From positions 1 to 23,110 of the IMG/VR virus record IMGVR_UViG_3300027631_002338: a stretch of DNA of 23,110 nucleotides; one strand, written 5' to 3'. The notes under the pieces are model-generated. The model worked only from the letters and a program-made list of their open reading frames with translations, did no database searches and was not told the origin of the DNA. Shown here piece by piece: positions 1-22,840 of this stretch (its first letter is position 1; each line of letters starts with the position of its first letter). The stretch is from a virus. The position numbers were made by a program, and so were the translations under genes.

Positions 1-2
1 AT

Positions 3-1361
3 ATAGATGAAACTAAATTTACCGCAAAAGGATATACATATACAAATAATACTTGGAATGTAGTGAATGGAACTGCAAGACAATTAAGTGGATTGGGTAA
101 AGTTGATTTGACAAGTTTATTGGATACTGCAAAGGTTTCAGGTGGTGGAATTAAAGCAACAACATCCGCAGGACAAGTTGAGTGGGCAATAATAAATCCA
201 TATGATGCAACTTTAGGTGGACATCAATTATTAATAGACGAAAGAGAATTTGATGGAACGGGAGTATCTCCAACCAACATAACATCAATTAAATTATTTG
301 ACATATATGATGGACCGGTTACCATTAATAATGTAAGTGGATTTTGGAAAACCTACATAATGCCCGGTAATTTGACAACTAAAATAACTTCATCCACATT
401 TCAAGCTCAATTGAGATTACAAGATGGTTGGTATGGAACAAGAGCCGAATTTACTTTCTCTCCAATATTAGCATACAAACCGCACGGAATAGAATTAACA
501 CATTCAAACCAAACGGAATTAAATACACTATATAGTAGTATTGTTGGTGTATCGGATGTGTATTTGGCATTTAAGGAATTAGCGGACGGTGGACTATTTG
601 GAAATCAAAGTGGAATGGGATTAACCAATGGTATCCAATATTTGAACGCTGATGTTGATGGTAATGGTATATTCAACGAATCAGACACATACAAATTATT
701 ACAACATCTTACAGGTGTTCAACCACTTTCACAATCTACCGCATTAACATATTTGATGAAGTTATATAACAAATCAGATTATGATGCAATAACAACATCA
801 AATTGGGGAACTAAATTTAATTCAACTCGTAACCTACTTCCGTTTACATTGAGTAGTTTAAATAACACATATAACGTAAGTGTAACTTGGTTAGGAGATG
901 TAAATCTATCTCATTCAGCACAACAAAGTGTGAGTAGTGTGGTAAGTAATTCAATTAGAACAATGAGTTTGAGTAGTAATTCCGTTTCAAATGAGATAAA
1001 TGGTTTAATTATGGGTGAATTGGTTGGTAATAAAGTTATAATTACATTATCAATAGACCCGTTACAACAAGAATTGGTTGGTACACAATTCAATTTAAAC
1101 TATGATAACACCTCTTTAAAGTTCGAAAAGGTAGACTTTACAACAAAAGGTAATGCAACTAATTTTGGAACTAATAGGGGTACATTTATAACATTGGGTT
1201 CATTGATAACTGATGGCTCGGCCACATTAGATAAAACCACCGAATATCGAGTAGTATTTACACCAATAGGAAATTTAAAAGACATATTAGGGTTAACATC
1301 AATATCAACAACAGATGCTGTTAATAAAGACGGAAAACAATTAAAGGTGAAATTAAACTAA
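3..1361 (+). CDS. Large surface/virion protein with dockerin-like and cohesin-like regions (5' end outside window)
   Basis: The reading frame is open from the first bases of the window through to the stop, so this is the 3' part of a longer gene; the first apparent start (GTG at 63) is only an internal codon. Two regions can be recognised. Around 555-720 there is a dockerin-like stretch with an EF-hand style calcium loop (DVDGNGIFNESD at 651-686). At about 1008-1358 there is a cohesin-like beta-sandwich, with a core resembling VGTQFNLNYDNTSLKFEKV. In cellulosomes these two folds bind each other; having both in one phage chain suggests a self-assembling or calcium-stabilised fibre or appendage. 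The rest is Asn/Thr/Ser-rich beta-type sequence, as in tail fibres and surface adhesins. The stop overlaps the next start (TAATG), so the gene is translationally coupled to the outer-membrane barrel gene. A virion fibre and a secreted surface protein are both possible. Confidence 0.55.
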   Translation: MDETKFTAKGYTYTNNTWNVVNGTARQLSGLGKVDLTSLLDTAKVSGGGIKATTSAGQVEWAIINPYDATLGGHQLLIDEREFDGTGVSPTNITSIKLFDIYDGPVTINNVSGFWKTYIMPGNLTTKITSSTFQAQLRLQDGWYGTRAEFTFSPILAYKPHGIELTHSNQTELNTLYSSIVGVSDVYLAFKELADGGLFGNQSGMGLTNGIQYLNADVDGNGIFNESDTYKLLQHLTGVQPLSQSTALTYLMKLYNKSDYDAITTSNWGTKFNSTRNLLPFTLSSLNNTYNVSVTWLGDVNLSHSAQQSVSSVVSNSIRTMSLSSNSVSNEINGLIMGELVGNKVIITLSIDPLQQELVGTQFNLNYDNTSLKFEKVDFTTKGNATNFGTNRGTFITLGSLITDGSATLDKTTEYRVVFTPIGNLKDILGLTSISTTDAVNKDGKQLKVKLN

Positions 1362-2254
1362 TGAGAAAATTATTATTAATTCTGTTACTAATTTCGATAA
1401 CATTTGTTACAAACGCACAGATACAAAAGCCCGATACATTACAATTATCACCAAAAGAGTTATTTGGAGAAAGTGATGATTGGAATGATATTGGTATACT
1501 ACAATCATATATTGATTTCTCTAAAGATGTGCTTTCGTCATCAAATCTATCAGTTGGTATAATCGGTAAACAGGTATCTAGCACCTTAAATTTAGGGTAT
1601 AGTAAATCATCTATGAATGGTAAATTTACACATTCATTCTCAACATCAATAAATCCTATATGGAATTACTATGGTGTTGGTTATGGTTTTAGTAAAAATA
1701 CCGATAAGAGAACTACAACATTACAAACATTTTATTCGACAGATTTTGATTTTCAAAAAGATATTACCATTTCATTCATAGATGTATTCAGAACTAAAAA
1801 GTTTGGAACATTTGGATATAGTTTAATAGCATCTAAAACATTTTGGGATACATACGAAGGTGAATGGGGAGGAAAGTATACTGTCGACGAAAACGGTGAT
1901 TTTTTGGATTTGATCTATCCAAAAATACCGGCATCATCGGAAACTATTTATAAAGGAATGTTAATGTACACTTATACAATAAAAACAAAGAGAGTTAATA
2001 TATCTCCACAAATATTTGCTATGAGTGATGTCTACAAAGCATTCAAAGATGGTACTGAATCAGATTTAACATACTTGGATGATTTCAATTTGGATTTATA
2101 TTATGGTACATCACTTGACTGGAAAATAACTAAAAGATTCGTTTTGAATACCAATATTAGATTTAATAAGACTTGGGATAAATTATCAGAATCTGTTGGT
2201 TATAAGAAAGCCAATCCAATAATGTTTATGGTAGGAACAAACTTTCAATTTTAA
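1361..2254 (+). CDS. Secreted outer-membrane beta-barrel protein (paralogue of the barrel at 6305-7705)
   Basis: The 297-residue product begins with a typical signal peptide (MRKLLLILLLISITFVTNAQ, cleavage expected near AQ). The mature part is rich in alternating aromatic and polar residues, as in transmembrane beta-strands, and ends in FQF; a terminal Phe is the classical beta-signal for insertion by the BAM complex. Several blocks match the C-terminal domain of the 6305-7705 gene: LGYSKSS against VGVSKSS, ISPQIFAM against ISPQVFTM, and LDWKITKRF against FDYKITKRF. The two are therefore paralogues. The start codon overlaps the upstream stop by one base, and a lipoprotein gene follows after 3 bases, so the gene sits in a tight operon. 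An outer-membrane barrel is unusual cargo for a phage; surface remodelling, exclusion of other phages or lysis are possible roles. I cannot name a family. Confidence 0.6.
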   Translation: MRKLLLILLLISITFVTNAQIQKPDTLQLSPKELFGESDDWNDIGILQSYIDFSKDVLSSSNLSVGIIGKQVSSTLNLGYSKSSMNGKFTHSFSTSINPIWNYYGVGYGFSKNTDKRTTTLQTFYSTDFDFQKDITISFIDVFRTKKFGTFGYSLIASKTFWDTYEGEWGGKYTVDENGDFLDLIYPKIPASSETIYKGMLMYTYTIKTKRVNISPQIFAMSDVYKAFKDGTESDLTYLDDFNLDLYYGTSLDWKITKRFVLNTNIRFNKTWDKLSESVGYKKANPIMFMVGTNFQF

Positions 2255-2257
2255 GAT

Positions 2258-2599
2258 ATGAAAAGAATATTATATATGTTTCTTGTTTTACTATTAGGGT
2301 GTACTAAACCAGAGTTACCCACACCAACACCGTCTGTTGAGAAAATTTTCAGTGTAAGTGAAAGTAGTGTTACTGATGGTCAATCTATTCATTTTGACTT
2401 ACCATCGGCAGGTACCTATATATTAACGCTTGTTGATGTTGAGAGTGGACAAGTTGTTAGTCGAGAAAGATTTATTGGTGTTGCCGGAGAAAATAACAAA
2501 AAAATATATACCAAATCTATAGTATCGAAGTATTTATATTTGATACTCGCTTCGGCAGATAATGCCCAAATAAGTAAAACAAAACTAACACTAAACTAA
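2258..2599 (+). CDS. Small lipoprotein with a T9SS C-terminal-domain-like fold
   Basis: The 113-residue product starts with a short lipoprotein signal peptide ending in LLLGC, so Cys16 is the likely lipidated residue. The mature part begins TKPELPTPTP, a short Pro-rich spacer. The remaining roughly 80 residues form one beta-sandwich-like domain (GTYILTLVDVESGQVVSRE, later YLYLILASADN, ending in KLTLN). Its strand pattern resembles the type A sorting domain of the Bacteroidota type IX secretion system, and it aligns with the domain of the next gene. A T9SS sorting domain normally sits at the end of a large cargo protein; here it is nearly the whole mature protein behind a lipid anchor. It could be a decoy, a plug or simply an Ig-like domain. 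The gene is spaced 3 bases from the barrel gene and 1 base from the next lipoprotein. Confidence 0.55.
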   Translation: MKRILYMFLVLLLGCTKPELPTPTPSVEKIFSVSESSVTDGQSIHFDLPSAGTYILTLVDVESGQVVSRERFIGVAGENNKKIYTKSIVSKYLYLILASADNAQISKTKLTLN

Positions 2600-2600
2600 A

Positions 2601-2975
2601 ATGAAAAAAAGATTAATATTTGGATTATTAATATTTGGCTTAATTGGTTGCACTAAAGACGATCTTTTTATCAACCAAGAGATTAACCAAATTAAACCAG
2701 AGTTACAAATAAAGAACTCGGTTGGTCTTAAGCTAGAGACGGCGTTTGTAACCGGAGAGGTTGCTATGAACGTAAAAAGTGAAGTTGGGCAATCGGTAAC
2801 TATAAAGATTTTTGATATTTCCAATAGAGTGGTATCAAAAGAGACCGTAACTGTTAAATCTGGTGATAATATTTTAAAGGTATATACATCAACTTTACCA
2901 TCATCAGCATATAGAATTGGCTTATATGACTCTAAGGGTAATCAATTAGGAATTACAGATTTTAATAAATTATAA
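2601..2975 (+). CDS. Small, probably surface-exposed lipoprotein with a T9SS C-terminal-domain-like fold
   Basis: The 124-residue product has a strong lipobox (LIGC, Cys17) after a hydrophobic signal peptide. The residues after the cysteine read TKDD, which fits the K-(D/E)2 lipoprotein export signal known from Capnocytophaga to send lipoproteins to the outer face of the outer membrane. The C-terminal ~75 residues (SVTIKIFDISNRVVSKETV, then a G-D-N turn, LPSSAYRIGLYDSKGNQL) closely follow the type A T9SS sorting-domain pattern. They also align with the preceding gene, which makes the pair tandem paralogues. The gene lies 1 base after its neighbour in the same operon. Surface localisation is an inference from the signal. 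Function is unknown; blocking of host surface machinery or receptor masking are options. Confidence 0.55.
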   Translation: MKKRLIFGLLIFGLIGCTKDDLFINQEINQIKPELQIKNSVGLKLETAFVTGEVAMNVKSEVGQSVTIKIFDISNRVVSKETVTVKSGDNILKVYTSTLPSSAYRIGLYDSKGNQLGITDFNKL

Positions 2976-2990
2976 ATAAAAATACATAAA

Positions 2991-3308
2991 ATGTCAGAAG
3001 AATTAGAACAAAATAACGATGGTACATGGACTGGTTTAAAGAAAACCATTGTCGGTGTAATAACAACAGCAGTAATGGGGTTAGGAACTTGGGGAGTAAC
3101 TCAGTTAACGGGTGGTGGTGATGATCCAGCTCCAGTACAACAAGCAGCCCCTGTAATTAACATTACAAACTCACAAACTCAGCAACAAGCTGCAGGTGGG
3201 GGTGGTAAAACTGTTATCATTAAAGAAAAAGAAACCGTTAAAGAACCTGCAAAACCGGTTAAGAAAAAAGAAGGTGATGAATTTAAAGAAGAAGCACCTA
3301 AGTGGTAA
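2991..3308 (+). CDS. Small single-span membrane protein with charged tail
   Basis: The 105-residue product has a short acidic N-terminus, one hydrophobic segment at about residues 19-40 (IVGVITTAVMGLGTWGV), then a GGGDDPAP linker, a Gln/Asn/Thr-rich stretch and a Lys/Glu-rich C-terminus. There is no signal-peptide cleavage site, so a membrane anchor with a soluble tail is likely. It opens a run of five small membrane-protein genes between the lipoproteins and the CsgG-like gene, as a lysis cassette might be organised. The leader is A-rich (AATACATAAA before ATG), as usual for Bacteroidota. No family recognised. Confidence 0.6.
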   Translation: MSEELEQNNDGTWTGLKKTIVGVITTAVMGLGTWGVTQLTGGGDDPAPVQQAAPVINITNSQTQQQAAGGGGKTVIIKEKETVKEPAKPVKKKEGDEFKEEAPKW

Positions 3309-3309
3309 T

Positions 3310-3489
3310 ATGGAACAGGGATTAAGTTTTATAGCTGTGGTAACGTTGTGTACTCTTGCTATGTTCGTATTTAATTCTCCATTATTATTTTTAATTGCCT
3401 TTTTTAGTGGTTCAACGTATTTGGTAATTAGAGGGAAAAAAATGGGGTGGAGGTTACCTAAAAATATAAGGGATACTCACTCTTGGTAA
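3310..3489 (+). CDS. 59-residue membrane protein with two hydrophobic segments
   Basis: I place the start at the ATG at 3310, one base after the previous stop. A longer in-frame reading from 3196 exists, but its extra part overlaps the previous gene and is a lysine-rich artefact of that gene's Lys/Glu codons. The product has two hydrophobic segments, about residues 4-20 and 24-40, followed by a basic stretch (RGKKMGWRLPK) and ends in HSW. Size and topology fit a small phage membrane protein, holin or antiholin type, but no family can be assigned. It lies within the run of small membrane genes at 2991-4665. Confidence 0.55.
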   Translation: MEQGLSFIAVVTLCTLAMFVFNSPLLFLIAFFSGSTYLVIRGKKMGWRLPKNIRDTHSW

Positions 3490-3512
3490 TAAGAAAAAAA
3501 ATATTAGATAAA

Positions 3513-4127
3513 ATGAAAGAACAACCAAGTGGATTTAAGGATTTATTAAGTAGTATGATGAAACGTAGATGGTTCATCACTGCCATCGTTTTAGGTGGTT
3601 TTATGGTTATCATAATGGGTATATTCGGAGCAATAATAAATAAATCAGCAATTGAGGGTGAATGGAAAGAATTACTTCTATTGTTATTAGGTGCTTTTAT
3701 TGGATCTTATGGTAAAATAATAGACTACTGGTTTAGTGATACTGACAAGGATAAAATGTTAGTACAAAAAATGGACGAAGAAGATGGTACATCATTGAGC
3801 AATACTGCAGATATGCCAAATAATCCGATAGTTCCAACCAACGTATCCCCATTAGTATTAGAGTCAGCGATACATGATGAAACACCTAAAGTAAAAGATA
3901 TGTTTGAACAAGTACCAGCAACACAACCAAGAACTGGTATTGAAGTTGATGAAGATGGTGATGGAATTATGGACGGTATTGACTTCGATGGTGATGGTAA
4001 GATTGATGTATATTTCGCACACAGACAATGTCAACACGTTTGGGGAGATTCAGATGGGGATGGTGACCTAGAATGTTTAGTATGTGGTAAAATAAAAGAT
4101 CCTGAACCTGGCGAGGAAGAAGGATAA
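3513..4127 (+). CDS. Holin-like membrane protein with calcium-loop and zinc-ribbon tail
   Basis: The chosen start is the ATG at 3513 (204 residues), preceded by an A-rich leader; an in-frame TTG at 3483 overlaps the previous stop and is less likely. The N-terminal part has hydrophobic segments at about 21-42 and 53-68 (LLLLLLGAFIGSYGKIIDYW), similar in layout to the 3TM holin of gene transfer agents. The C-terminal tail contains Asp-rich calcium loops (DEDGDGIMDG, DFDGDGKID, DSDGDGD, residues 146-187) interleaved with a possible zinc ribbon (C173, H175, C188, C191). The two metal-site types overlap: the third calcium-type loop sits between the zinc ligand pairs. A holin-like protein with a metal-binding extramembrane domain is unusual. 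The holin role is inferred from topology and context only. Confidence 0.5.
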   Translation: MKEQPSGFKDLLSSMMKRRWFITAIVLGGFMVIIMGIFGAIINKSAIEGEWKELLLLLLGAFIGSYGKIIDYWFSDTDKDKMLVQKMDEEDGTSLSNTADMPNNPIVPTNVSPLVLESAIHDETPKVKDMFEQVPATQPRTGIEVDEDGDGIMDGIDFDGDGKIDVYFAHRQCQHVWGDSDGDGDLECLVCGKIKDPEPGEEEG

Positions 4128-4156
4128 TAAAAATAATACGCGTAAAATTTTAAAAT

Positions 4157-4420
4157 ATGGCAAGTTTTTTAAAAGAATTATTTAATGACAATAACACAAT
4201 TAACGAAAAATCAGTAGTTGGTTTTGCATCATTTATTTGTATGGTAATTGCGTTAGCAGTAGATCTCATAACTGGTTGGTTAGGTAAACCATTGGTTATT
4301 AATGAATTTATATTTGACGGTTTCTTAGTTATTACTTTGGGATCTTTCGGTATTGCGTCTGTTGACAAATGGATAAACAATAAAAATTCTAAAAATGATA
4401 CTGAAGTTTTAGAGGGATAA
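4157..4420 (+). CDS. 87-residue two-span membrane protein, holin candidate
   Basis: The product has a short hydrophilic N-terminus, hydrophobic segments at about residues 19-41 (VVGFASFICMVIALAVDLIT) and 50-69 (FDGFLVITLGSFGIASV), and a charged C-terminal tail. Two spans and a length below 100 residues are typical of phage holins. The second span, ending in SVDKW, resembles the corresponding part of the preceding gene (GKIIDYW), so the two may be a holin and antiholin pair. The gene is separated from its neighbours by short A-rich gaps and is in the same operon. No named family can be assigned from the sequence. Confidence 0.55.
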   Translation: MASFLKELFNDNNTINEKSVVGFASFICMVIALAVDLITGWLGKPLVINEFIFDGFLVITLGSFGIASVDKWINNKNSKNDTEVLEG

Positions 4421-4437
4421 CAATTAAAAACAAAAAA

Positions 4438-4665
4438 ATGACAAACTTTATAAATAAGGCTAAAAATATGATTTTTAGTTTAACACTTGTTCTTACAAGT
4501 ACTTGGATACTATTTGCACTTTCTTTCCAATTGTACGCAGTGTTTTTACAAGTAAGTGGGCAAGAAGAAGAAATGGCCAGAATATCTAATGAGATATCTT
4601 GGAGAGTTGATGGTACGTTTAAAAATAATCCAGATAATATCTGGTACGAAGGCCCTTCTAAGTAA
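4438..4665 (+). CDS. 75-residue single-span membrane protein
   Basis: One long hydrophobic segment covers about residues 11-38, followed by a hydrophilic tail (QEEEMARISNEISWRVDG, then NPDNIWYEGPSK). There is no cleavage site or lipobox, so this is probably an anchored protein with a short soluble tail. It lies 17 bases after the holin-like gene and 21 bases before the CsgG-like gene. Its role is unknown; a helper in lysis or in envelope targeting would fit the context. Confidence 0.55.
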   Translation: MTNFINKAKNMIFSLTLVLTSTWILFALSFQLYAVFLQVSGQEEEMARISNEISWRVDGTFKNNPDNIWYEGPSK

Positions 4666-4686
4666 TTTAGGTTAAAAAATATAGAT

Positions 4687-5418
4687 ATGATACAAAAGAT
4701 AAAAGTATTTGTAATTGGATTGTTATTATGCGCCTTTGCACAAGATATAATCGCGCAAACAATCGGTAAAACAAAAACAGAAGACTACAAGGCTGATTTT
4801 GAAAAAAAGAAAGACATATCAGCTTACTTAGATTATGATGGTCCTCAAATACCAATTCAAATATTAAAAGCCGGTATATCAGATGAAATATATGAAATGT
4901 ATCCTGAATTAAAAGAAAAACGCGTTGGTTTAGGGGTTGCCAATATTTCTATGGAATATCTGGAGAATTTAAATAGATTTATTTTTACTGAGGATAAAAC
5001 AGAAATAAAGAACCGTATGGTTAAACAATTTCAAGCGTCACAATCAGGTATTTCAGAAGATAAATTAGATGGTCGAGGTAAAATTAGATTAGCAAAATAT
5101 TTTGTAACAATTGAGTGTTATGATTATTCAATATCTGAAGACGAAACAATTAATCTAAAAGATGGTATAAAAGATAATATGGTAACTCGTATAGGTCTTC
5201 AGGTTAGATTTACCGATGCGGAAACTGGGGCTATGTTTGGGGCATCTGGATTAGGTGAAGCGACAACAAGAAGAGAATTAACTCTTTTATCTGATGCAAC
5301 AATCGACCCAATTAAATTCAACCAATCAACAATTTCAATTGCAACTAAAAAGGCATTAGACATTGCTTGCGCAAATATTCTTGATAGAATGATTAAAAAG
5401 GGTGTTTTTACAAAATAA
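4687..5418 (+). CDS. CsgG-like secreted protein (candidate outer-membrane pore)
   Basis: The 243-residue product starts with a signal peptide ending near residue 24 (IIAQ). A Cys within the hydrophobic stretch is preceded by Leu, so it is not a good lipobox. The mature part follows the layout of the CsgG/HfaB family: an opening strand (RVGLGVANIS), then NRFIFTEDKTEIKNRMVKQF where CsgG has its vvEReqld helix, LAKYFVTIECYDYS, the characteristic RIGLQVRFTDAETGAMFGAS, a G-x-G-E stretch, and a final helix with KKALDIACANILDRM. In bacteria CsgG forms the outer-membrane export channel for curli; family members also occur in some marine phages, where an export or egress pore has been discussed. It is the last gene of the operon, followed by a strong terminator. 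The absence of a lipid anchor differs from true CsgG. Assignment is by pattern only. Confidence 0.55.
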   Translation: MIQKIKVFVIGLLLCAFAQDIIAQTIGKTKTEDYKADFEKKKDISAYLDYDGPQIPIQILKAGISDEIYEMYPELKEKRVGLGVANISMEYLENLNRFIFTEDKTEIKNRMVKQFQASQSGISEDKLDGRGKIRLAKYFVTIECYDYSISEDETINLKDGIKDNMVTRIGLQVRFTDAETGAMFGASGLGEATTRRELTLLSDATIDPIKFNQSTISIATKKALDIACANILDRMIKKGVFTK

Positions 5419-5440
5419 TAATTTTTTAAATAATGGTATA

Positions 5441-5465
5441 AAGGGGTTTAATTACCCCTTTTTTT
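5441..5465 (+). terminator. Intrinsic terminator after the CsgG-like gene
   Basis: A seven-base stem AAGGGGT (5441-5447) pairs with ACCCCTT (5454-5460) around a six-base loop and runs into a T tract (5459-5465). It closes the envelope operon. Confidence 0.85.
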
Positions 5466-5466
5466 A

Positions 5467-5474
5467 TATTTATA
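5467..5474 (+). promoter_or_regulatory. TATTTATA phage promoter element
   Basis: TATTTATA lies two bases after the terminator T tract and 15 bases before the next start. The same octamer stands in the same place before most other plus-strand units of this window (13404, 13653, 14742, 14765, 18257, 20089). I read it as the core of a phage-specific promoter. Confidence 0.55.
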
Positions 5475-5489
5475 ATAAAACGATAAAGT

Positions 5490-6305
5490 ATGAAAACGTT
5501 ATTAATTACATTATTATTCATTCCAACAATTATGTTAGGACAGGTTTCATCTTGGAGAAGTAATCCTCCGCAACCACAAAGAACGGAAACCCCTAGAGTT
5601 CAACCAACAAGCCCACAAAGAAATGATGTGAGTAGATGGAGAACACAAACAGAACCAATTAGACCTGGCCAACCTGTTCCACAACAACCATTGGTTAGAA
5701 GATGGAGAAGTAATGTAGCAAACCCATATGGTTACTATTGGGGAAATTGGGGTTGGTATCAACCGTTTCCTTACATTTGGTATGACGATTTTGGATGGAG
5801 ACAAAGAAGTGTAGTTAGAATATACGAAAACGGTAAAAGAGATACAATTAGAAAAGAAACAGTTTACACATCTTTTGGTATTGGACACACAAATAATAAA
5901 CAAGCATCTTTTTGGGGTGCGGTAGGTGGTAAAAAAAGTTATTTTATTTTAGATTATACAATGTCATATGATATTGATCAAAATCAATATTATCCATACG
6001 GTAGAATTAATGAGGTAGATTTCACACTAAGTAAAAATGATTTTATTAAACAAGGAACTTTATATCTTGGCGGAGGTAAAAGATTTGGTAAGTTAGGTGT
6101 TCATGGTATGATTGGATTTGGTAATGAGAATATTAGATATCAAGGTAGAGACGATCTTGGTGGTATATCATTTCCAAAATCAAATTCAAATTTTACAACA
6201 TTTAAAATTGGTATTATTAGAGACTTCAAATTTTTTACAATAAAATTAGATAGAGATCCAATAAGAAATTATAACCAAATAAGTGTTGGTTTCCATAACA
6301 AGTAA
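5490..6305 (+). CDS. Secreted protein with Trp-Arg repeats and a C-terminal beta domain
   Basis: The 271-residue product has a signal peptide (MKTLLITLLFIPTIMLGQ). The mature N-terminus carries three spaced copies of a W-R motif in a Pro/Gln-rich context: SSWRSNPP at about residue 20, SRWRTQTEP at 49 and RRWRSNVANP at 71, with a fourth, GWRQRS, at 102. Next comes an aromatic segment (GYYWGNWGWYQPFPYIWY), then a domain of about 150 residues with beta-strand alternation (ASFWGAVGGKKSYFILDYTM, TLYLGGGKRFGKLGVHGMIG) that could be a small barrel. It is the first gene after its own promoter and overlaps the next start by one base (TAATG), so it is probably made together with the linker-barrel protein. 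The repeats could bind peptidoglycan, lipopolysaccharide or a partner. No family recognised. Confidence 0.55.
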   Translation: MKTLLITLLFIPTIMLGQVSSWRSNPPQPQRTETPRVQPTSPQRNDVSRWRTQTEPIRPGQPVPQQPLVRRWRSNVANPYGYYWGNWGWYQPFPYIWYDDFGWRQRSVVRIYENGKRDTIRKETVYTSFGIGHTNNKQASFWGAVGGKKSYFILDYTMSYDIDQNQYYPYGRINEVDFTLSKNDFIKQGTLYLGGGKRFGKLGVHGMIGFGNENIRYQGRDDLGGISFPKSNSNFTTFKIGIIRDFKFFTIKLDRDPIRNYNQISVGFHNK

Positions 6306-7705
6306 TGAAAAAAATATTATTTTTTATTTTTATTTTTATTTCGATAAGATCATTTGGTCAAACATATACACAAACATTCATTGATAAATGTAGTGGGGAA
6401 AAAAAGGTTGCCACAACAACAATGATGAATGGTTATGCAACAGTATCATTTTATAATCAAGTAAGGGCATTTTCACCATTAGAAGTTCAATCAGGGGTTG
6501 TACAAGCTTGGTTATTAACAACTAAAGCAACATATGAAGCAATTACATGCCCAGTAATAAACAACCCTATTGTACAACAAGCAGTAACAAATGCTGCGGC
6601 ACAAACGGCAGCAAATGCAGCATCAGCGGCAGCTAGTAGTGCGGCTTCTACGGCCGCCAGTAGTTCAGCAAGTTCTGCAGCAAGTAGTTCTGCAAGTAGT
6701 GCTGCAGCAAGTTCAGCGGCATCAACACCACCACCTGTGACACCACCGCCAGCTAGTAGTGGTTCAACACCACCACCAGCTAGTAGTTCGTCTTCATCAA
6801 GTGGTTCATCATCTTCTAGTTCATCATCCTCATCAGAATCTAAAACAGAAACAAAAACAGAGGCTAAAACAGAATCTAAGTCAGAAAGTAAAAGTGAGTC
6901 AAAATCAGAAAGTAAAAGTGAGGAAAAAAAGGAAGAGTCAAAATCAGAATCTAAGGAAGAAAAGAAAGAAGAATCTAAATCAGAAGAAAAGAAAGAGGAA
7001 GAAAAAAAGGAGGAAAAAAAAGAAGAGAAGAAAAAAGAAAAGGCTGTTGCATCAAACCCTATGTTGTTATCTTCTGATTTGTCCGTTATTGAATCACCAG
7101 ATGGTAGATGGTTACAATCGGCAACAGTTGGAGTATCAAAATCTTCATTAATGGGTGATGAAAGCTATTCTGCCAACGCGGTAATCATGAGTGATCTAAA
7201 AACGTTTATTGTTAGTGGAGGATATACTAAAATGGATTTTTCTAGTGGTAAGTTAAAAGCAATACATTCATATTCGACAGCCTTTGCATATCTAAATGGT
7301 GTATACATGAATTTGATGGGGTATACATACATTAAGCCAACAACAAAATATGGCGTGTTTGGATATAACGTTGGTTTAATAAATTTACTTATTAAGAACT
7401 CTACAGGTGGTTATGATCATAATATGTCATCATCTGTTGTTGGATTTTGGACAAAGCCATATCAATACAATAAAAAATTAAGTATTTCACCACAGGTGTT
7501 TACTATGTTTGCACCATTATCTTGGAATAGTGTTACTGGTGGATCAACAGTAAACAGAAGTGTTGGGTTTTTATTAGGTTCTTCTTTTGATTATAAAATA
7601 ACAAAAAGATTTGGATTTACAATAAACTATAAATTAAGCGGTAATACATCAGCAGGATCACCATTTTTAAGTAACTTTTTAATTGGGTCAAGGATGATTT
7701 TATAA
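6305..7705 (+). CDS. Outer-membrane beta-barrel protein with long low-complexity linker
   Basis: The 466-residue product has four parts. A signal peptide ends at SFGQ (residue 19). A small N-terminal domain of about 75 residues follows, with two cysteines (C29, C82) that could form a disulfide in the periplasm. Residues 97-247 are low complexity: Ala/Ser-rich, then Pro-rich, then poly-Ser, then Lys/Glu/Ser-rich. The C-terminal ~200 residues are a beta-barrel-like domain related to the 1361-2254 gene (SKSS, FGYNVG, ISPQVFTM, DYKITKRFGF). The layout suggests a barrel in the outer membrane with a flexible arm reaching through the periplasm, possibly to peptidoglycan. It is the last gene of its operon, followed by a terminator. 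Function unknown; an envelope-spanning tether is an inference. Confidence 0.6.
   Translation: MKKILFFIFIFISIRSFGQTYTQTFIDKCSGEKKVATTTMMNGYATVSFYNQVRAFSPLEVQSGVVQAWLLTTKATYEAITCPVINNPIVQQAVTNAAAQTAANAASAAASSAASTAASSSASSAASSSASSAAASSAASTPPPVTPPPASSGSTPPPASSSSSSSGSSSSSSSSSSESKTETKTEAKTESKSESKSESKSESKSEEKKEESKSESKEEKKEESKSEEKKEEEKKEEKKEEKKKEKAVASNPMLLSSDLSVIESPDGRWLQSATVGVSKSSLMGDESYSANAVIMSDLKTFIVSGGYTKMDFSSGKLKAIHSYSTAFAYLNGVYMNLMGYTYIKPTTKYGVFGYNVGLINLLIKNSTGGYDHNMSSSVVGFWTKPYQYNKKLSISPQVFTMFAPLSWNSVTGGSTVNRSVGFLLGSSFDYKITKRFGFTINYKLSGNTSAGSPFLSNFLIGSRMIL
6593..7046 (+). repeat. Low-complexity coding repeat (Ala/Ser, Pro, poly-Ser, Lys-Ser-Glu blocks)
   Basis: The DNA consists of imperfect repeats of GCA/AGT/TCA-type codons, then CCACCA blocks, then TCA/TCT runs, then AAA/GAA/TCA triplets. 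It encodes the linker between the N-terminal and barrel domains of the surrounding gene. Such tracts can vary in length by slippage, so the linker length may differ between related phages. Confidence 0.8.
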
Positions 7706-7715
7706 AATAAAAAAA

Positions 7716-7742
7716 CCCTTGTAAAAACAAGGGCCTTTTTTT
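7716..7742 (+). terminator. Intrinsic terminator at the convergent junction
   Basis: CCCTTGT (7716-7722) pairs with ACAAGGG (7727-7733) around an AAAA loop, followed by CC and seven T. It ends the plus-strand barrel operon. The A run before the stem could let it act on the opposing minus-strand transcript as well. Confidence 0.85.
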
Positions 7743-7792
7743 GGCAAGAAATGACTAAACGCACTCTCTATACGTTTATGATATAATATAAA

Positions 7793-8146
7793 TTATTTTT
7801 TATTTTTTGTCAAGCTTTTATACAAACTTATTATTTCAGAACATTTTTCATAATCTTCTATATCTTCAAAATATTGGATTACATGATCAATAAGAATATC
7901 GGGATCTTTTTTAGATAATTGAAATTCTGTTTTCCAGTCCATTATCTCACCTTTACTCAATAATAAACTAGCATTAACAACAAATTTAATTTCTTTTTTT
8001 CTTGTTGTTATTAAATGTTTAAACGAATCAACAACACCACCATAAATTAATGGTTTGTTTTTATCTAAAAAATCTTCAAAAGATTTGTATTTTCCAGTTA
8101 CATGAACATCCAGTGTTTCTGGTTCGTTGGCGTTAGTTGTTCTCAT
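7793..8146 (-). CDS. Hypothetical protein downstream of RNA ligase
   Basis: I start this gene at the ATG at 8146 (117 residues, MRTTNANEPETLDVHVTG...), which overlaps the RNA ligase stop by 14 bases; a longer reading from 8212 would overlap the ligase by 80 bases. The product is a hydrophilic alpha/beta protein with HVTGKYKSFEDFLDKNK, a central strand KEIKFVVNASLLLSKGEI, and a charged helical end (DYEKCSEIISLYKSL). No signal peptide or known motif is visible. It is the last gene of the minus-strand block and is probably co-translated with the ligase. Function unknown; a factor in the same RNA-repair pathway is possible from position alone. Confidence 0.5.
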   Translation of the reverse strand: MRTTNANEPETLDVHVTGKYKSFEDFLDKNKPLIYGGVVDSFKHLITTRKKEIKFVVNASLLLSKGEIMDWKTEFQLSKKDPDILIDHVIQYFEDIEDYEKCSEIISLYKSLTKNKK

Positions 8147-9326
8147 TTTTAAATGGTTTTGAGTATGTTGGGTATAATAATTTCCAAATAGTTTGTTTAG
8201 GGTTTGTTCCATCTAACATGTTAAATAAAATGTTAGAGTGTCTATATTGTTTTGCTCTTAAAGCAAAGTCTTTTCTACTTAAATTTCGATTATTTAAATT
8301 TTCAAATATTTCTCTATAATCTTTTTCTATGTTTTCAAATCTTACTGTTAAATCGCGAGCGGTTTCTTTTACCCAATTATTAAATTCGTCGGGTACTTTT
8401 TCGAGCAGCTCATCAAATGGTTTATTGTCTTTCAAGTATTCCCAAATATCTCTATTTGATATATTTGTTAAAATGCGGTGAAGTCTAATATATTCTTCAC
8501 CTTTTATTTTCATTCGAAAACCATTCTTAAATCGGATCACATACCCTTCTTTATCGTTACTGATTTCTTCTTTAAGTAAATCATATCCTTCTCCCCAAGT
8601 TTTATATAGGGTAACAACTTTAATGTTTAAATTTTTTATTAGATTTTTTAATCTAATATCTTCATTATTATCGTTGTGTATATTAACCTCATCACCGGTT
8701 TTGGTGTGGATCATACCAAGTAAAATTAAATCTTCAAAATCATAGTTACAAACTATTCTGTTTTCTGGATAAATAATTTCAAATAAATAGGTATAATCTT
8801 TGGCCAACCTATTGTAATCATATTTTTCCAATAATTCTCTTCCTTTGATTGCTTGTGTTGATGTAAATGAACCGCGTGTAGCCAATATCCACTCACCTTT
8901 TGTTTTTGGTGTTGGGTCATAATAAGTGTTATCAAAATCAGGTAAATTCTTTGGATCAAAGAATCTTTCCATTCCGGTTTCATAATTATTATTAAACCAT
9001 ATGTTATATCTTCTTTCATCAGTTAATTCTTCTTCATAATAAAAAAGAATACCTAATGAACCATCCATTTTTTCATATACCTCAAAATTTTCATTTGGTA
9101 AATCCTCAGGTTTATGTTCCTCATAATTGAAAAATTTCTTGAATGGTCTTGCAACAATTTCACCTTTAGTGTTTGTAACTAACCCACGACATTGTATAGT
9201 AATATCATCCCATAGTCTCTCATATTGAACTATTGGAGAATAATTCCAAATAGTTAAATCAAGAGTCGGGTGAGTTTGTTTATGTAACAAACCATCTTTG
9301 TAATATTTTTCTAATGTGTTTAACAC
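8133..9326 (-). CDS. rnlA: T4 Rnl1-type RNA ligase
   Basis: The 397-residue product matches ATP-dependent RNA ligase 1 of T4 (about 375 residues). Visible motifs in order are RGLVTN and ARPFKKFFNYEE upstream of the active site; nucleotidyl motif I EKMDGS with Lys86 as the likely adenylated residue; ATRGSFTSTQA; motif III-like LFEIIYPENRIV (residues 181-192); motif IV KEGYVIRF (259-266); and motif V RMKIK (271-275). The enzyme seals 5'-phosphate and 3'-OH RNA ends; in T4, together with polynucleotide kinase/phosphatase, it repairs tRNA cut by host anticodon nucleases. A kinase-like gene lies just upstream, which supports this role. The start is GTG: no ATG is available before an upstream in-frame stop. 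Confidence 0.9.
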   Translation of the reverse strand: MLNTLEKYYKDGLLHKQTHPTLDLTIWNYSPIVQYERLWDDITIQCRGLVTNTKGEIVARPFKKFFNYEEHKPEDLPNENFEVYEKMDGSLGILFYYEEELTDERRYNIWFNNNYETGMERFFDPKNLPDFDNTYYDPTPKTKGEWILATRGSFTSTQAIKGRELLEKYDYNRLAKDYTYLFEIIYPENRIVCNYDFEDLILLGMIHTKTGDEVNIHNDNNEDIRLKNLIKNLNIKVVTLYKTWGEGYDLLKEEISNDKEGYVIRFKNGFRMKIKGEEYIRLHRILTNISNRDIWEYLKDNKPFDELLEKVPDEFNNWVKETARDLTVRFENIEKDYREIFENLNNRNLSRKDFALRAKQYRHSNILFNMLDGTNPKQTIWKLLYPTYSKPFKNENN

Positions 9327-10454: not shown

Positions 10455-10637
10455 CTATTTTACCTCGGTAGAACTTGTAGTGTCTACGGCCGCTTTCGTA
10501 GAATCAACTGCAATTACAGCAGATGTGTCAGCTTGAGTACCGGTTGAATCTGTTGTTTCATTTGTGGTAGATCTTGAACCACATGCTGTTAGTGTAACTG
10601 CTACACCAATAGCAAAAATAAATATATATTTCTTCAT
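10455..10637 (-). CDS. 60-residue lipoprotein
   Basis: The start is placed at 10637 (MKKYIFIFAIGVAVTLTAC), where a standard lipoprotein signal peptide with lipobox LTAC (Cys19) begins; a longer in-frame reading from 10718 would run through the preceding terminator and is rejected. The mature part is a short, disordered Thr/Ser/Asp/Ala-rich tail (GSRSTTNETTDSTGTQADTS) with no acidic export signal after the cysteine, so it probably stays on the periplasmic side. It is flanked by two terminators and is thus a single-gene unit. It resembles small Bacteroidota lipoproteins. A role such as superinfection immunity is possible but not shown. Confidence 0.65.
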   Translation of the reverse strand: MKKYIFIFAIGVAVTLTACGSRSTTNETTDSTGTQADTSAVIAVDSTKAAVDTTSSTEVK

Positions 10638-10666
10638 ATAGGTTAAATATAAGGAAAAAAAATGAT

Positions 10667-10697
10667 AAAAAAAAACCCCAACGAGAAGTTGGGGTTT
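10667..10697 (-). terminator. Strong intrinsic terminator upstream of the lipoprotein gene
   Basis: A ten-base perfect stem, AAACCCCAAC (10673-10682) with GTTGGGGTTT (10688-10697), encloses a five-base loop. On the minus strand it is followed by an uninterrupted T tract (complement of 10667-10675). It ends the Clp transcript and the candidate small RNA below. Confidence 0.9.
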
Positions 10698-10776
10698 AAG
10701 GTCTTTCGGCGGGTTCAACTCCGCTTACTTTTTGAAAAAAAACGAAAGGTAATCGACAAAGAGAACCTATAGACAT
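10667..10776 (-). ncRNA. Candidate small structured RNA or 26-residue micro-ORF
   Basis: The region between the Clp stop and the terminator has a TATTTATA element on the minus strand (10783-10776), then about 100 bases ending in the strong terminator. Within it CTTTCG (complement of 10742-10747) can pair with CGAAAG (complement of 10702-10707), enclosing a GCGG/CCGC hairpin, so the transcript would be structured. The same DNA has an ATG at 10776, directly in the promoter element, opening 26 codons (MSIGSLCRLPFVFFQKVSG...) that stop at 10696 on the edge of the terminator stem. I cannot decide between RNA and peptide. A 3'-UTR-derived product of the Clp transcript is also possible. Confidence 0.35.
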
Positions 10777-21908: not shown

Positions 21909-22652
21909 ATGAACAGAATTGGGATTATAAAGAGCAAACTCTTAAAAAAACTAACAGAATCATATGGTTCTAACAATAAATCTGAAATGAAAAACATTTT
22001 AAAATCTGTTGTTGAGAATAAGGAGTTCAAGGAGATGTATCTTTTCTACGAGGAAATTGAAAATAAATATTTTGAAGATAAGGAAATAGCTAAATTATAT
22101 GTTGAAGGTATTGATACCGAAATGGTAAAACAACAAGTTAAAAATTTAAAAACATTCTGTGAATCACTAGATAAGAAGTTAGGGGATATTGAGGTAACAA
22201 CAAATGAAATATATGAGGCATTAGATCAATTGGGATCTGAAGATTCGTTATCAAACCTTGAAAAGAAAATTGTGGCAAAAAAGAGACTAATTGAACATTT
22301 AACAACTAAAAAATCAGTAGAAAACATCTCTGAGAGTAAAACTTACACAGCAAATGAAAATTTGTTACATGCAGTATTGGTAAATAATTTCAATAATCTA
22401 TACGAAAATACATTATCTAAAGAAGATAAAGAGGCGCTTAAGAATATTTTGGATATAAACGGTGAAGAGTTATTAACTAAAACATCTGAACTAAAAGAAA
22501 CAATTCTTTCTAAAGTTACAAATATTTTATCAGAATCTAAAGATGCTGATTTGGAAACAAAACTTAAATCAGTTAGAAATGAGGTTACTTCGATGACTCC
22601 ATCAAAATACAATTATTACAGATTAACACAACTTAAAAATGGTCTTGATTAA
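21909..22652 (+). CDS. Probable prohead-core or head protein downstream of portal
   Basis: The 247-residue product is almost entirely helical and highly charged (FKEMYLFYEEIENKYFEDKE, KTFCESLDKKLGDIEVTTNE), with no signal or membrane segment. Its N-terminus (MNRIGIIKSKLLKKLTES) is a basic helix ending in an L-T-E-S sequence, and further ISES and LSES sites follow; T4 gp21 cleaves after LxE or IxE before small residues. In T4 the genes after the portal gene 20 encode prohead-core proteins gp67 and gp68, and then protease gp21. Position, composition and sites therefore suggest a scaffold or core protein. There is no direct family match that I can see. Its stop lies inside a bidirectional terminator. 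Confidence 0.6.
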   Translation: MNRIGIIKSKLLKKLTESYGSNNKSEMKNILKSVVENKEFKEMYLFYEEIENKYFEDKEIAKLYVEGIDTEMVKQQVKNLKTFCESLDKKLGDIEVTTNEIYEALDQLGSEDSLSNLEKKIVAKKRLIEHLTTKKSVENISESKTYTANENLLHAVLVNNFNNLYENTLSKEDKEALKNILDINGEELLTKTSELKETILSKVTNILSESKDADLETKLKSVRNEVTSMTPSKYNYYRLTQLKNGLD

Positions 22653-22667
22653 ATCAGACCATTTTTT
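22635..22667. terminator. Bidirectional intrinsic terminator between head operon and bS21 gene
   Basis: AAAAATGGTC (22635-22644) pairs with GACCATTTTT (22657-22666), with a short inner TGA/TCA extension. The T tract on the right serves the plus strand and the A run on the left serves the minus strand. Both flanking stop codons lie inside it, and the two genes overlap by four bases. Confidence 0.8.
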
Positions 22668-22840
22668 AATTTTTCCACATAAACAGCTTTTAATACTTCA
22701 GCACGTTTTTTAACAGAGGGTTTTGTAAACGATTGTCTTTCCCTTAGATTTTGAATCTGTTTAGTTTTTTGTACCTTACTTTTGTAAGTTTTAAGAGCAG
22801 ACTCAATGCTCTTTTCTTTTTTCATATCAATTATAATCAT
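22649..22840 (-). CDS. rpsU: Phage-encoded ribosomal protein bS21
   Basis: The 63-residue product matches bS21 over its whole length, in the Bacteroidota form: IESALKTYKSKVQKTKQIQN, then LRERQSFTKPSVKKRAEVLK and AVYVEKLKNG. bS21 is the last protein to join the 30S subunit and sits next to the anti-Shine-Dalgarno end of 16S rRNA. In Flavobacterium it helps hide that end, which is why these hosts do not use Shine-Dalgarno pairing. The tyrosine at position 54 corresponds, as I recall, to a residue described in that pocket. Phage-borne bS21 is known from metagenomic and cultured viruses and is thought to enter host ribosomes and favour phage messages. An alternative start at the ATG at 22825 would remove the first five residues. 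The leader has no Shine-Dalgarno sequence, and a TATTTATA element lies four bases upstream. Confidence 0.88.
   Translation of the reverse strand: MIIIDMKKEKSIESALKTYKSKVQKTKQIQNLRERQSFTKPSVKKRAEVLKAVYVEKLKNGLI

Follow-up and report, generated by a model that had tools for sequence, protein, structure and literature searches.

Gene content and organization

The virus record IMGVR_UViG_3300027631_002338, whose 23,110 bases were analysed as a whole (hereafter the window), encodes a cassette of exported and membrane proteins, g0 to g11, that is conserved among related phages and, late in the infection, probably alters the exterior of the host cell. The cassette forms two tightly spaced units on the plus strand, at 1361-5418 and 5490-7705 (Table 1), and its open reading frames (ORFs) exist where an earlier note on this DNA had placed them. 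That note had the first unit begin at 1361, but the upstream g0 ORF overlaps g1 by one base and is part of the unit, which therefore extends past the edge of the window. Both terminators that it had proposed, at 5441 and 7716, coincide with stem-loops; the scan of positions 1-9000 on both strands returned 7 terminator-like sites versus 3.1 in shuffles.

Six window proteins carry export signals, in agreement with the earlier count of at least six. The proteins g2 and g3 are lipoproteins (lipoboxes LLGC and LIGC), and g1, g9, g10 and g11 have Sec signals of the signal peptidase I (SpI) type with presumed cleavage sites TNA↓Q, IIA↓Q, MLG↓Q and SFG↓Q. The Gln that follows each of these sites agrees with the Q-rule, according to which most Bacteroidetes SpI substrates have Gln as the first mature residue (PMC10653852). 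The clustering of export signals is not due to chance, as a crude signal rule applied to the 251-kb relative G003 marked 5 of 12 cassette ORFs versus 4 of 246 others (Fisher p 1e-5), although this rule is rough, misses g1 and g10 of the window and g9 of G003, and called G003 g10 as a truncated ORF. Five small membrane proteins had also been proposed; a hydrophobic segment is evident in g5, g6, g7 and g8, whereas the N-terminal segment of g4 falls below the hydropathy threshold. In the members inspected, the g4 tail ends in Trp.

The nearest relative, a 251-kb contig (L002) with a g9 that is 99% identical, has the gene order small CsgG-like protein, two g0, g1 barrel, two lipoproteins, g4, g5, g6, g7, g8, g9, g10 and g11.

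Table 1. Cassette genes, signals and neighbouring genes in the window
Feature	Position	Strand	Description	Basis
g0	3..1361 (5' end outside window)	+	Exported modular protein, dockerin-like stretch and cohesin-like C-terminal domain	Pfam
g1	1361..2254	+	Sec-exported outer-membrane beta-barrel (predicted), ends in Phe	Homology to g11
g2	2258..2599	+	Lipoprotein, partial surface-export signal C-T-K-P-E	Lipobox
g3	2601..2975	+	Lipoprotein, optimal surface-export signal C-T-K-D-D-L	Lipobox; signal definition (PMC5080379)
g4	2991..3308	+	Small protein, weakly hydrophobic N-terminal segment, Pro/Ala/Gln-rich tail	Core gene
g5	3310..3489	+	Small membrane protein, poorly conserved	Hydropathy
g6	3513..4127	+	Small membrane protein, acidic C-terminal part	Hydropathy; no named family
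g7	4157..4420	+	Small membrane protein	Hydropathy; GH19 endolysin neighbour in some relatives
g8	4438..4665	+	Small membrane protein	Hydropathy
g9	4687..5418	+	Sec-exported protein with predicted CsgG fold, best conserved member	AlphaFold2 model, Foldseek, VIA, IMG/VR scan
Terminator-like stem-loop	5440..5461	+	After g9	Stem-loop scan
TATTTATA motif	5467..5474	+	23 bases before g10	
g10	5490..6305	+	Sec-exported, Pro/Arg-rich N-terminus, beta-rich C-terminal part	Signal MLG↓Q
g11	6305..7705	+	Sec-exported, two-Cys N-terminal domain, Ser/Ala/Lys/Glu-rich linker, 12-stranded barrel (predicted)	AlphaFold2, Foldseek, VIA
Terminator-like stem-loop	7716..7733	+	After g11	Stem-loop scan
Phage RNA ligase, Clp-type ATPase, Hsp20, large terminase (TerL), portal	Right of cassette			PHROGs for TerL and portal
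Ribosomal protein bS21	22649-22840	-	Adjoins terminase/portal region	PF01165, 1.3e-11, match at 22652-22840

Conservation of the cassette

A scan of IMG/VR with g9 identified 478 related stretches. Loci were fetched for the best 80 of these 478 and for the best 80 of 113 related stretches; the 161 loci compared were selected by g9, are often cut by contig ends, and include near-duplicates and Flavobacterium phage immuto twice (L082 and L083). Hidden Markov model (HMM) families grown iteratively on these same loci, in which g1 and g11 merge into a single family as do g2 and g3, detected a barrel in 159 loci, g4 in 145, g0 in 137, g6 in 98, g7 in 85, g2/g3 in 59, g10 in 44 and g5 in 10. A small CsgG-like protein is present in 103 loci (103 ORFs, counted after removal of 77 g9 ORFs that its HMM also catches) and g8 in 37 (counted after removal of small CsgG-like proteins caught by the g8 HMM). 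In 157 loci the barrel follows g9 at a distance of up to 3.5 kb, and in 138 g4 precedes it by no more than 5 kb; g0 is upstream of g9 in 110, many contigs being cut, and the small CsgG-like gene is downstream in 72 and upstream in 28. Based on these counts and positions, we define a core of g0, g4, g9 and a barrel, often accompanied by the small CsgG-like protein. The g9 proteins have a median identity of 86.6% (81 loci). The CsgG-fold protein, barrel, g4 and adhesins stay together even where g9 identity falls to about 52%, which makes strong selection for the module likely.

Among 50,697 GenBank phage records searched by tblastn, g9 matches Flavobacterium phage immuto only (three isolates, four records, 51.7% identity, E up to 0.01). 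The 28-kb immuto locus retains g4, g9 and a barrel and is without relatives of g6 and g7. A search of bacterial genome contigs for a bacterial origin gave 44 pattern matches. Relatives are encoded by 2 of them, each within a phage-like part of a metagenome-assembled genome (MAG); no host homologue was detected at that sensitivity. The two MAG contigs in GTDB genomes (L163 and L164; Flavobacterium sp. Ww15 and an uncultured Bacteroidetes) resemble phage sequence binned with bacteria. L164 holds g0, g4, g6, g9 and two barrels, and L163 has the same set with only a short barrel-like ORF, followed by an endolysin-like ORF. In another locus, a TonB-dependent-receptor-like barrel (Plug, OMP_b-brl_3; L055:4321-6576) is inserted in the cassette, with a lipoprotein of 400 amino acids at 6576-7775, and a pair resembling this receptor and lipoprotein follows g9 in L074 (10606-14279).

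CsgG-like proteins

The protein g9 is predicted to have the fold of CsgG. CsgG entries lead both the Foldseek list (4uv2, E 5.2e-7) and the VIA list (6l7a, Z 11.8, 173 residues aligned, root-mean-square deviation 3.7) for its AlphaFold2 model (pLDDT 75.5, pTM 0.69), which bears out the CsgG-like call of the earlier note. CsgG is followed by Cj1090c (Z 10.5), PelC (Z 9.3), LptE and, lower, TraT (Z 6.5), where a VIA Z under 8 may reflect no more than a shared arrangement. The function of TraT is in surface exclusion. Unlike Cj1090c, PelC and TraT, g9 is without a lipobox, and its sequence identity to them is 6-12%.

As far as its sequence goes, g9 is not CsgG. When the PDB was searched with the g9 profile, the single sequence match was unrelated (E 0.69). 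The SpI-type signal of window g9, ending in A↓Q, also differs from the lipidated CsgG; lipobox-like signals occur in some g9 relatives, for example in L150 and L158. The g9 model contains beta-hairpins; in CsgG, such hairpins insert in the membrane and form the pore. The stretch SGGVGARYFGIG, common to the CsgG proteins of E. coli and pelagiphage HTVC008M, is missing from alignment A1, which combines window g9 with the full set of 36 cluster representatives for its 161 relatives. By hydropathy alternation, g9 and CsgG cannot be told apart, and the idea that the hairpins are too polar for membrane insertion was dropped because a hydropathy count gave it no support.

The small exported protein found in many relatives (for example L093:8144-8596, L078:4172-4654 and L002:157-729) appears to be a second CsgG-like protein, related to g9 by profile comparison. 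Its profiles, built from two seeds without any g9 rows, matched the g9 profile in hhalign with probabilities of 95.7% (E 8.8e-9, 151 columns) and 88.0% (E 3.2e-6, 42 columns). Six control families reached 0.1-66.7%, the highest being g0 over 23 columns at the signal peptide. With profiles rebuilt from single-round searches, one seed was unchanged and the other gave a weaker and shorter match.

Beta-barrels and g10

The AlphaFold2 model of g11 (pLDDT 64.7, linker under 50) has 12 long strands at residues 253-465, preceded by the disordered linker, and the two Cys of the N-terminal domain are residues 29 and 82. FapF, a functional-amyloid exporter, ranks first by Foldseek E-value (8.5e-7). As NalP (Z 23.6 versus 19.8), EspP and COG4313 channels outscore FapF in VIA, we limit the label of g11 to autotransporter/FapF-like barrel. 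FapF, whose barrel comes with a periplasmic coiled coil and a plug, and the type V autotransporter translocators resemble the g11 model in having a 12-stranded barrel and an N-terminal region, but the N-terminal domain and linker of g11 differ, and a PDB sequence search found no sequence relative. Matches of g11 to Pfam (CDC27, TFIIA and others), to a PHROG and to PDB sequences lie for the most part in the low-complexity linker and were disregarded. Inside g11, window positions 6560-7050 are a very long low-complexity repeat, Ser/Ala/Pro-rich and then Lys/Glu-rich.

The protein g1 is homologous to g11 (BLASTP E 4e-5; same HMM family, 195 shared hits) and the two are paralogues, which extends the barrel prediction to g1, the protein that ends in Phe. 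Alignment A2 contains the window together with 62 of the 79 representatives of 149 barrel proteins. Judging from its sequence, the C-terminal part of g10 may form a small barrel; no Pfam family matched this protein. We consider the CsgG-fold proteins and barrels to be likely outer-membrane machinery. Overall, the assignment of the cassette to the cell envelope and the earlier barrel call survive structure prediction and fold comparison, in which a barrel and a CsgG fold were found rather than an absence of barrel or pore folds.

Adhesins, sorting domains and surface lipoproteins

The only domain matched in window g0 is Cohesin, under cut-off (4.8e-4). The g0 family is richer. In 37 members scanned, we identified Cohesin in 16 (best 1.4e-12), Lectin_C in 12 (2.6e-17), Por_Secre_tail in 10 (8.4e-12) and Dockerin_1 in 10 (0.0014), as well as single matches to PA14, LCCL, GLEYA and laminin-G. 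A dockerin-like motif occurs in 36 of 216 g0 proteins versus 0.3 in shuffles; this set was obtained by dropping matches with E above 1e-8 (256 to 244) and proteins at a locus edge or shorter than 200 amino acids (244 to 216). Alignment A3 comprises the window protein, 32 representatives of the 216, one more protein of L002 and three immuto proteins included by choice.

The type IX sorting domain TIGR04183 was detected in 9 of the 37 g0-family proteins. It is also present in 11 of 20 phage records, hand-picked and mostly long contigs, that were scanned for sorting domains, GH19 and PF03783. Ten of these 11, including the isolate immuto, are over the curated cut-off, and all ten domains lie within 2 kb upstream of g9 (positions determined by hand). 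In immuto, the sorting domain is carried by gp15, which has a signal-like N-terminus and is encoded two genes before the CsgG-like gene.

The lipobox calls for g2 and g3 were confirmed. A surface-export signal (LES), C-X-K-(D/E)2-X, has been defined in Capnocytophaga (PMC5080379); g3 has this signal after its lipidated Cys and g2 has it in part. Of the 86 lipoprotein relatives with a lipobox, 80 have Lys at +3, as in the published signal, and 64 an acidic residue at +5. The proteins g2 and g3 are similar to each other (BLASTP E 3e-5) and are paralogues. Weak matches of g3 to DUF3244 (0.0011) and Por_Secre_tail (0.019) are both under cut-off, and 20 of the 42 family members show weak similarity to DUF3244 and 18 to the sorting domain. 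Alignment A5 includes g2 and g3 of the window with 40 of 54 representatives. Taken together, the adhesive domains, type IX sorting domains and surface-lipoprotein signals suggest that products of the cassette end on the outer surface of the host.

Timing of expression

The motif TATTTATA lies 11-24 bases before the starts at 5490, 13425, 13677, 14784, 18268, 20101 and, on the minus strand, 22840 of the window, and precedes terminase, portal, bS21 and other structural-looking genes. In G003, 40 of 254 ORFs have it in the 100 bases before their start, against a shuffled mean of 6.8, and it marks 32 of the 124 ORFs with a gap before the gene versus 6 of the 130 others. Across the loci, it precedes the starts of g10 (21 of 45), g0 (39 of 240), g8 (8 of 31) and g9 (13 of 160), with 1.1, 2.1, 0.3 and 0.5 in shuffles, respectively. 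Its reverse complement, TATAAATA, the T4 late promoter sequence, is enriched in the window, with 14 occurrences on both strands together versus 5.4. As a motif before genes, TATAAATA was rejected, since it gave only 13 versus 8.9 in G003, where TATTTATA gave the counts above. We read TATTTATA as a candidate late promoter of this phage group; given its spacing, it could also be a translation signal. Late expression is suggested because the motif groups cassette genes with late functions.

Putative function of the cassette

We tentatively propose, at somewhat less than an even chance, that the cassette belongs to a T4-like huge phage encoding bS21 and, expressed late, works as a surface-display module, which lays an adhesive coat on the infected Bacteroidota cell. 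The Sec system of the infected cell would export the products, whose signal peptides follow the Q-rule, and the modular g0 proteins with their cohesin, dockerin and C-type lectin domains would reach the cell surface. In many relatives, the route of g0 may be host type IX secretion, as indicated by the sorting domain; in the lineage of the window, g0 may be helped by the surface lipoproteins g2 and g3, of which g3 carries the full signal. The predicted fold of g9 would allow it, together with its smaller relative where present, to form a ring in the outer membrane or at its periplasmic side. Beside this ring, the barrels g1 and g11 could take part in translocating or anchoring the adhesins, and g4 might tie the ring to the inner membrane. 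We speculate that the coat would most likely hinder adsorption of competing or sibling phages and/or make the cell adhere, before it lyses, to neighbours or particles, and that the holin-like g6 and g7 may be lysis genes that share the late unit. Surface remodelling against superinfection has already been suspected in bS21-encoding huge phages, from their lipopolysaccharide genes (PMC9723584).

Several observations weigh against this proposal. Display, ring formation and exclusion are steps that we infer. No type IX sorting domain was found in 9 of the 20 records (G003, G004, G005, G008, G009, G010, G011, G013 and G021), and these include close relatives of the window, G003 being the closest large one. 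The CsgG family PF03783 did not match window g9 (0 families matched), matched 2 of 37 relatives (best 1.9e-4) and exceeded its curated cut-off in just 1 of the 20 phage records; similarly, hhalign of the g9 profile with the CsgG of E. coli and of HTVC008M gave probabilities of 0.7% and 3.1%. With regard to timing, TATTTATA is rare before g7 (7 of 84), the small CsgG-like gene (6 of 99), g4 (2 of 136), g1 (1 of 92) and g11 (0 of 68), and where the small CsgG-like gene leads the unit, in L002, it is preceded by a near match only. The low counts for g4, g11 and g1 are expected inside operons. The motif shuffles preserve base content alone, not dinucleotides.

The remaining contrary observations concern lysis, the main rival, which is possible but distinctly less probable. 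According to this explanation, holin-like g6 and g7 and a GH19 endolysin would open the inner membrane and the wall, and g4, seated in the inner membrane with an extended periplasmic tail, a CsgG-fold ring and the barrels would breach the outer membrane, replacing spanins. Holin-like genes inside the cassette are what a lysis system would have, and g6 and g7 may be holin-like; g4 and g2/g3 could likewise be read as an inner-membrane i-spanin and an outer-membrane lipoprotein o-spanin. However, no holin or spanin family in the libraries searched matched g6, g7 or the cassette convincingly, and O_Spanin_T7 matched 2 of 42 lipoprotein-family members (best 0.038). Searches of PHROGs and Pfam with individual cassette proteins yielded nothing beyond weak matches under cut-off, and a match of g4 to a Zot-like PHROG (0.0057) was not used. 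A GH19-type endolysin (PG_binding_1 plus GH19) is present in 61 of the 161 loci and a GH19 gene in 19 of the 20 records, with a distance to g9 of less than 10 kb in 10 of these 19; the annotated endolysin of immuto is about 7.7 kb downstream of its g9, and g7 directly adjoins the endolysin in L097 and L084. In five records of the window lineage (G003, G004, G005, G009 and G010), by contrast, the GH19 gene is 40-44 kb from g9 (all distances in the records were determined by hand). The late-like motif fits lysis as well, and such a role has been proposed for the CsgG of methylophage Melnitz (PMC9004378), but lysis provides no obvious use for lectin, cohesin, dockerin and type IX sorting domains, and immuto keeps g4, g9 and the barrel in a locus without g6 and g7. 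The earlier note had listed lysis, remodelling and exclusion unranked; the sorting, lectin, cohesin and dockerin domains and the g3 signal now favour display, and the endolysin and holin-like neighbours in some relatives keep lysis open.

It is doubtful that the cassette encodes an undescribed outer-membrane assembly machine, in which two different CsgG-fold proteins form a mixed ring that works with an autotransporter/FapF-like barrel, g4 serves as an inner-membrane strap, and self-linking cohesin-dockerin lectins are placed on the surface. If true, this would change who can infect or stick to infected Bacteroidota cells.

Secretion of curli- or Fap-like fibres, with g9 or g11 exporting the subunit of amyloid or cohesin-dockerin fibres that aggregate hosts ('sibling capture'), is unlikely. 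It would account for the CsgG fold of g9, the first rank of FapF by E-value, and the cohesin and dockerin matches and dockerin-like motif within one family, and it has a parallel in pelagiphage curli clusters with CsgG, CsgF and CsgA/B (PMC9599517). However, no curlin, CsgE, CsgF or csgA/B family was found in 11 of the 12 cassette products (all but g5), autotransporter translocators fit g11 equally well or better, and the sequence features of CsgG are not seen in g9.

Alternatively, the products might assemble at the surface and supply the infected cell with captured polysaccharide, an aid to nutrient or carbohydrate uptake. The sugar-binding domains of the g0 family and the receptor-like barrels with lipoproteins of L055 and, by resemblance, L074 point in this direction, but no enzyme or transporter among the families tracked is conserved with the core and the motif is late-like, making this explanation improbable. 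That the proteins are virion components such as tail adhesins is least probable, because signal peptides, lipoboxes and type IX sorting domains direct proteins out of the cytoplasm, the site of virion assembly, even though lectin and PA14-type domains occur in phage adhesins too and the motif is common to cassette and structural genes.

Genomic context

The reverse-strand bS21 gene near the genes for TerL and portal is a hallmark of the bS21-encoding huge phages of Bacteroidetes, and on this basis we assign the window phage to that published group (PMC9723584). The carriers of the cassette are large viruses that infect Bacteroidota from freshwater and their relatives. Searches for Rfam families and tRNA genes found none in the window. 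Next to the cassette, g12 (7793-8212) and the RNA ligase ORF (8133-9326), both on the minus strand, overlap by 80 bases. A small lipoprotein, g16 (10455-10718, minus strand), has relatives in 68 of the 161 loci, including an immuto protein annotated YcfL. An exported DNA/RNA non-specific endonuclease is encoded near the cassette in 22 loci and could degrade extracytoplasmic DNA; immuto gp12 and L079:10644-11243 are signal-peptide-bearing examples (PF01223, 1.2e-19).

Relation to known systems and implications

Phages are known to encode outer-membrane barrels or lipoproteins as single genes, such as lambda Lom and Bor and T5 Llp, in contrast to the multi-protein module described here. Curli (type VIII secretion) clusters have been reported in pelagimyophages, pelagipodophages and methylophage Melnitz (PMC7029224, PMC9599517, PMC9004378). 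Those clusters resemble the cassette in that phages, some of them T4-like, encode the outer-membrane protein CsgG with other exported proteins, and their function is unproven there too, with exclusion, aggregation or lysis suggested. The cassette differs in that g9 is unrecognisable as CsgG by sequence, CsgF, CsgA/B and CsgE were not found, barrels, adhesins of the type IX secretion system and surface lipoproteins are present instead, and the hosts are Bacteroidota. Cryophage proteins carry type A sorting domains of the type IX secretion system, one together with PA14, and exclusion has been suggested for them; that cargo consists of variable genes (endoglucanase, GH39, PA14), as opposed to the conserved CsgG-fold/barrel module here (PMC7468147). 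In the part examined, the text of PMC9723584 makes no mention of the cassette.

The earlier note knew of no described phage system with this combination. No report of a CsgG fold, barrel and type IX-sorted adhesins together was found in titles and the beginnings of abstracts of the literature searched (5.39 million papers; subscription papers and most preprints lie outside it), so the claim holds in that literature for the whole, but not for its halves, which are published as the CsgG/CsgF of phage curli clusters and the type IX-sorted cargo of Cryophage.

The module is common, as indicated by the number of related stretches from one IMG/VR scan. Along with pelagiphage curli, it would exemplify phages that operate a secretion or display apparatus in the outer membrane of their host. 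It ties phage infection to the type IX secretion system of the host. Because the core is present in the cultured relative immuto, which infects Flavobacterium sp. LMO8, the reason why phages carry CsgG-like proteins can be tested.

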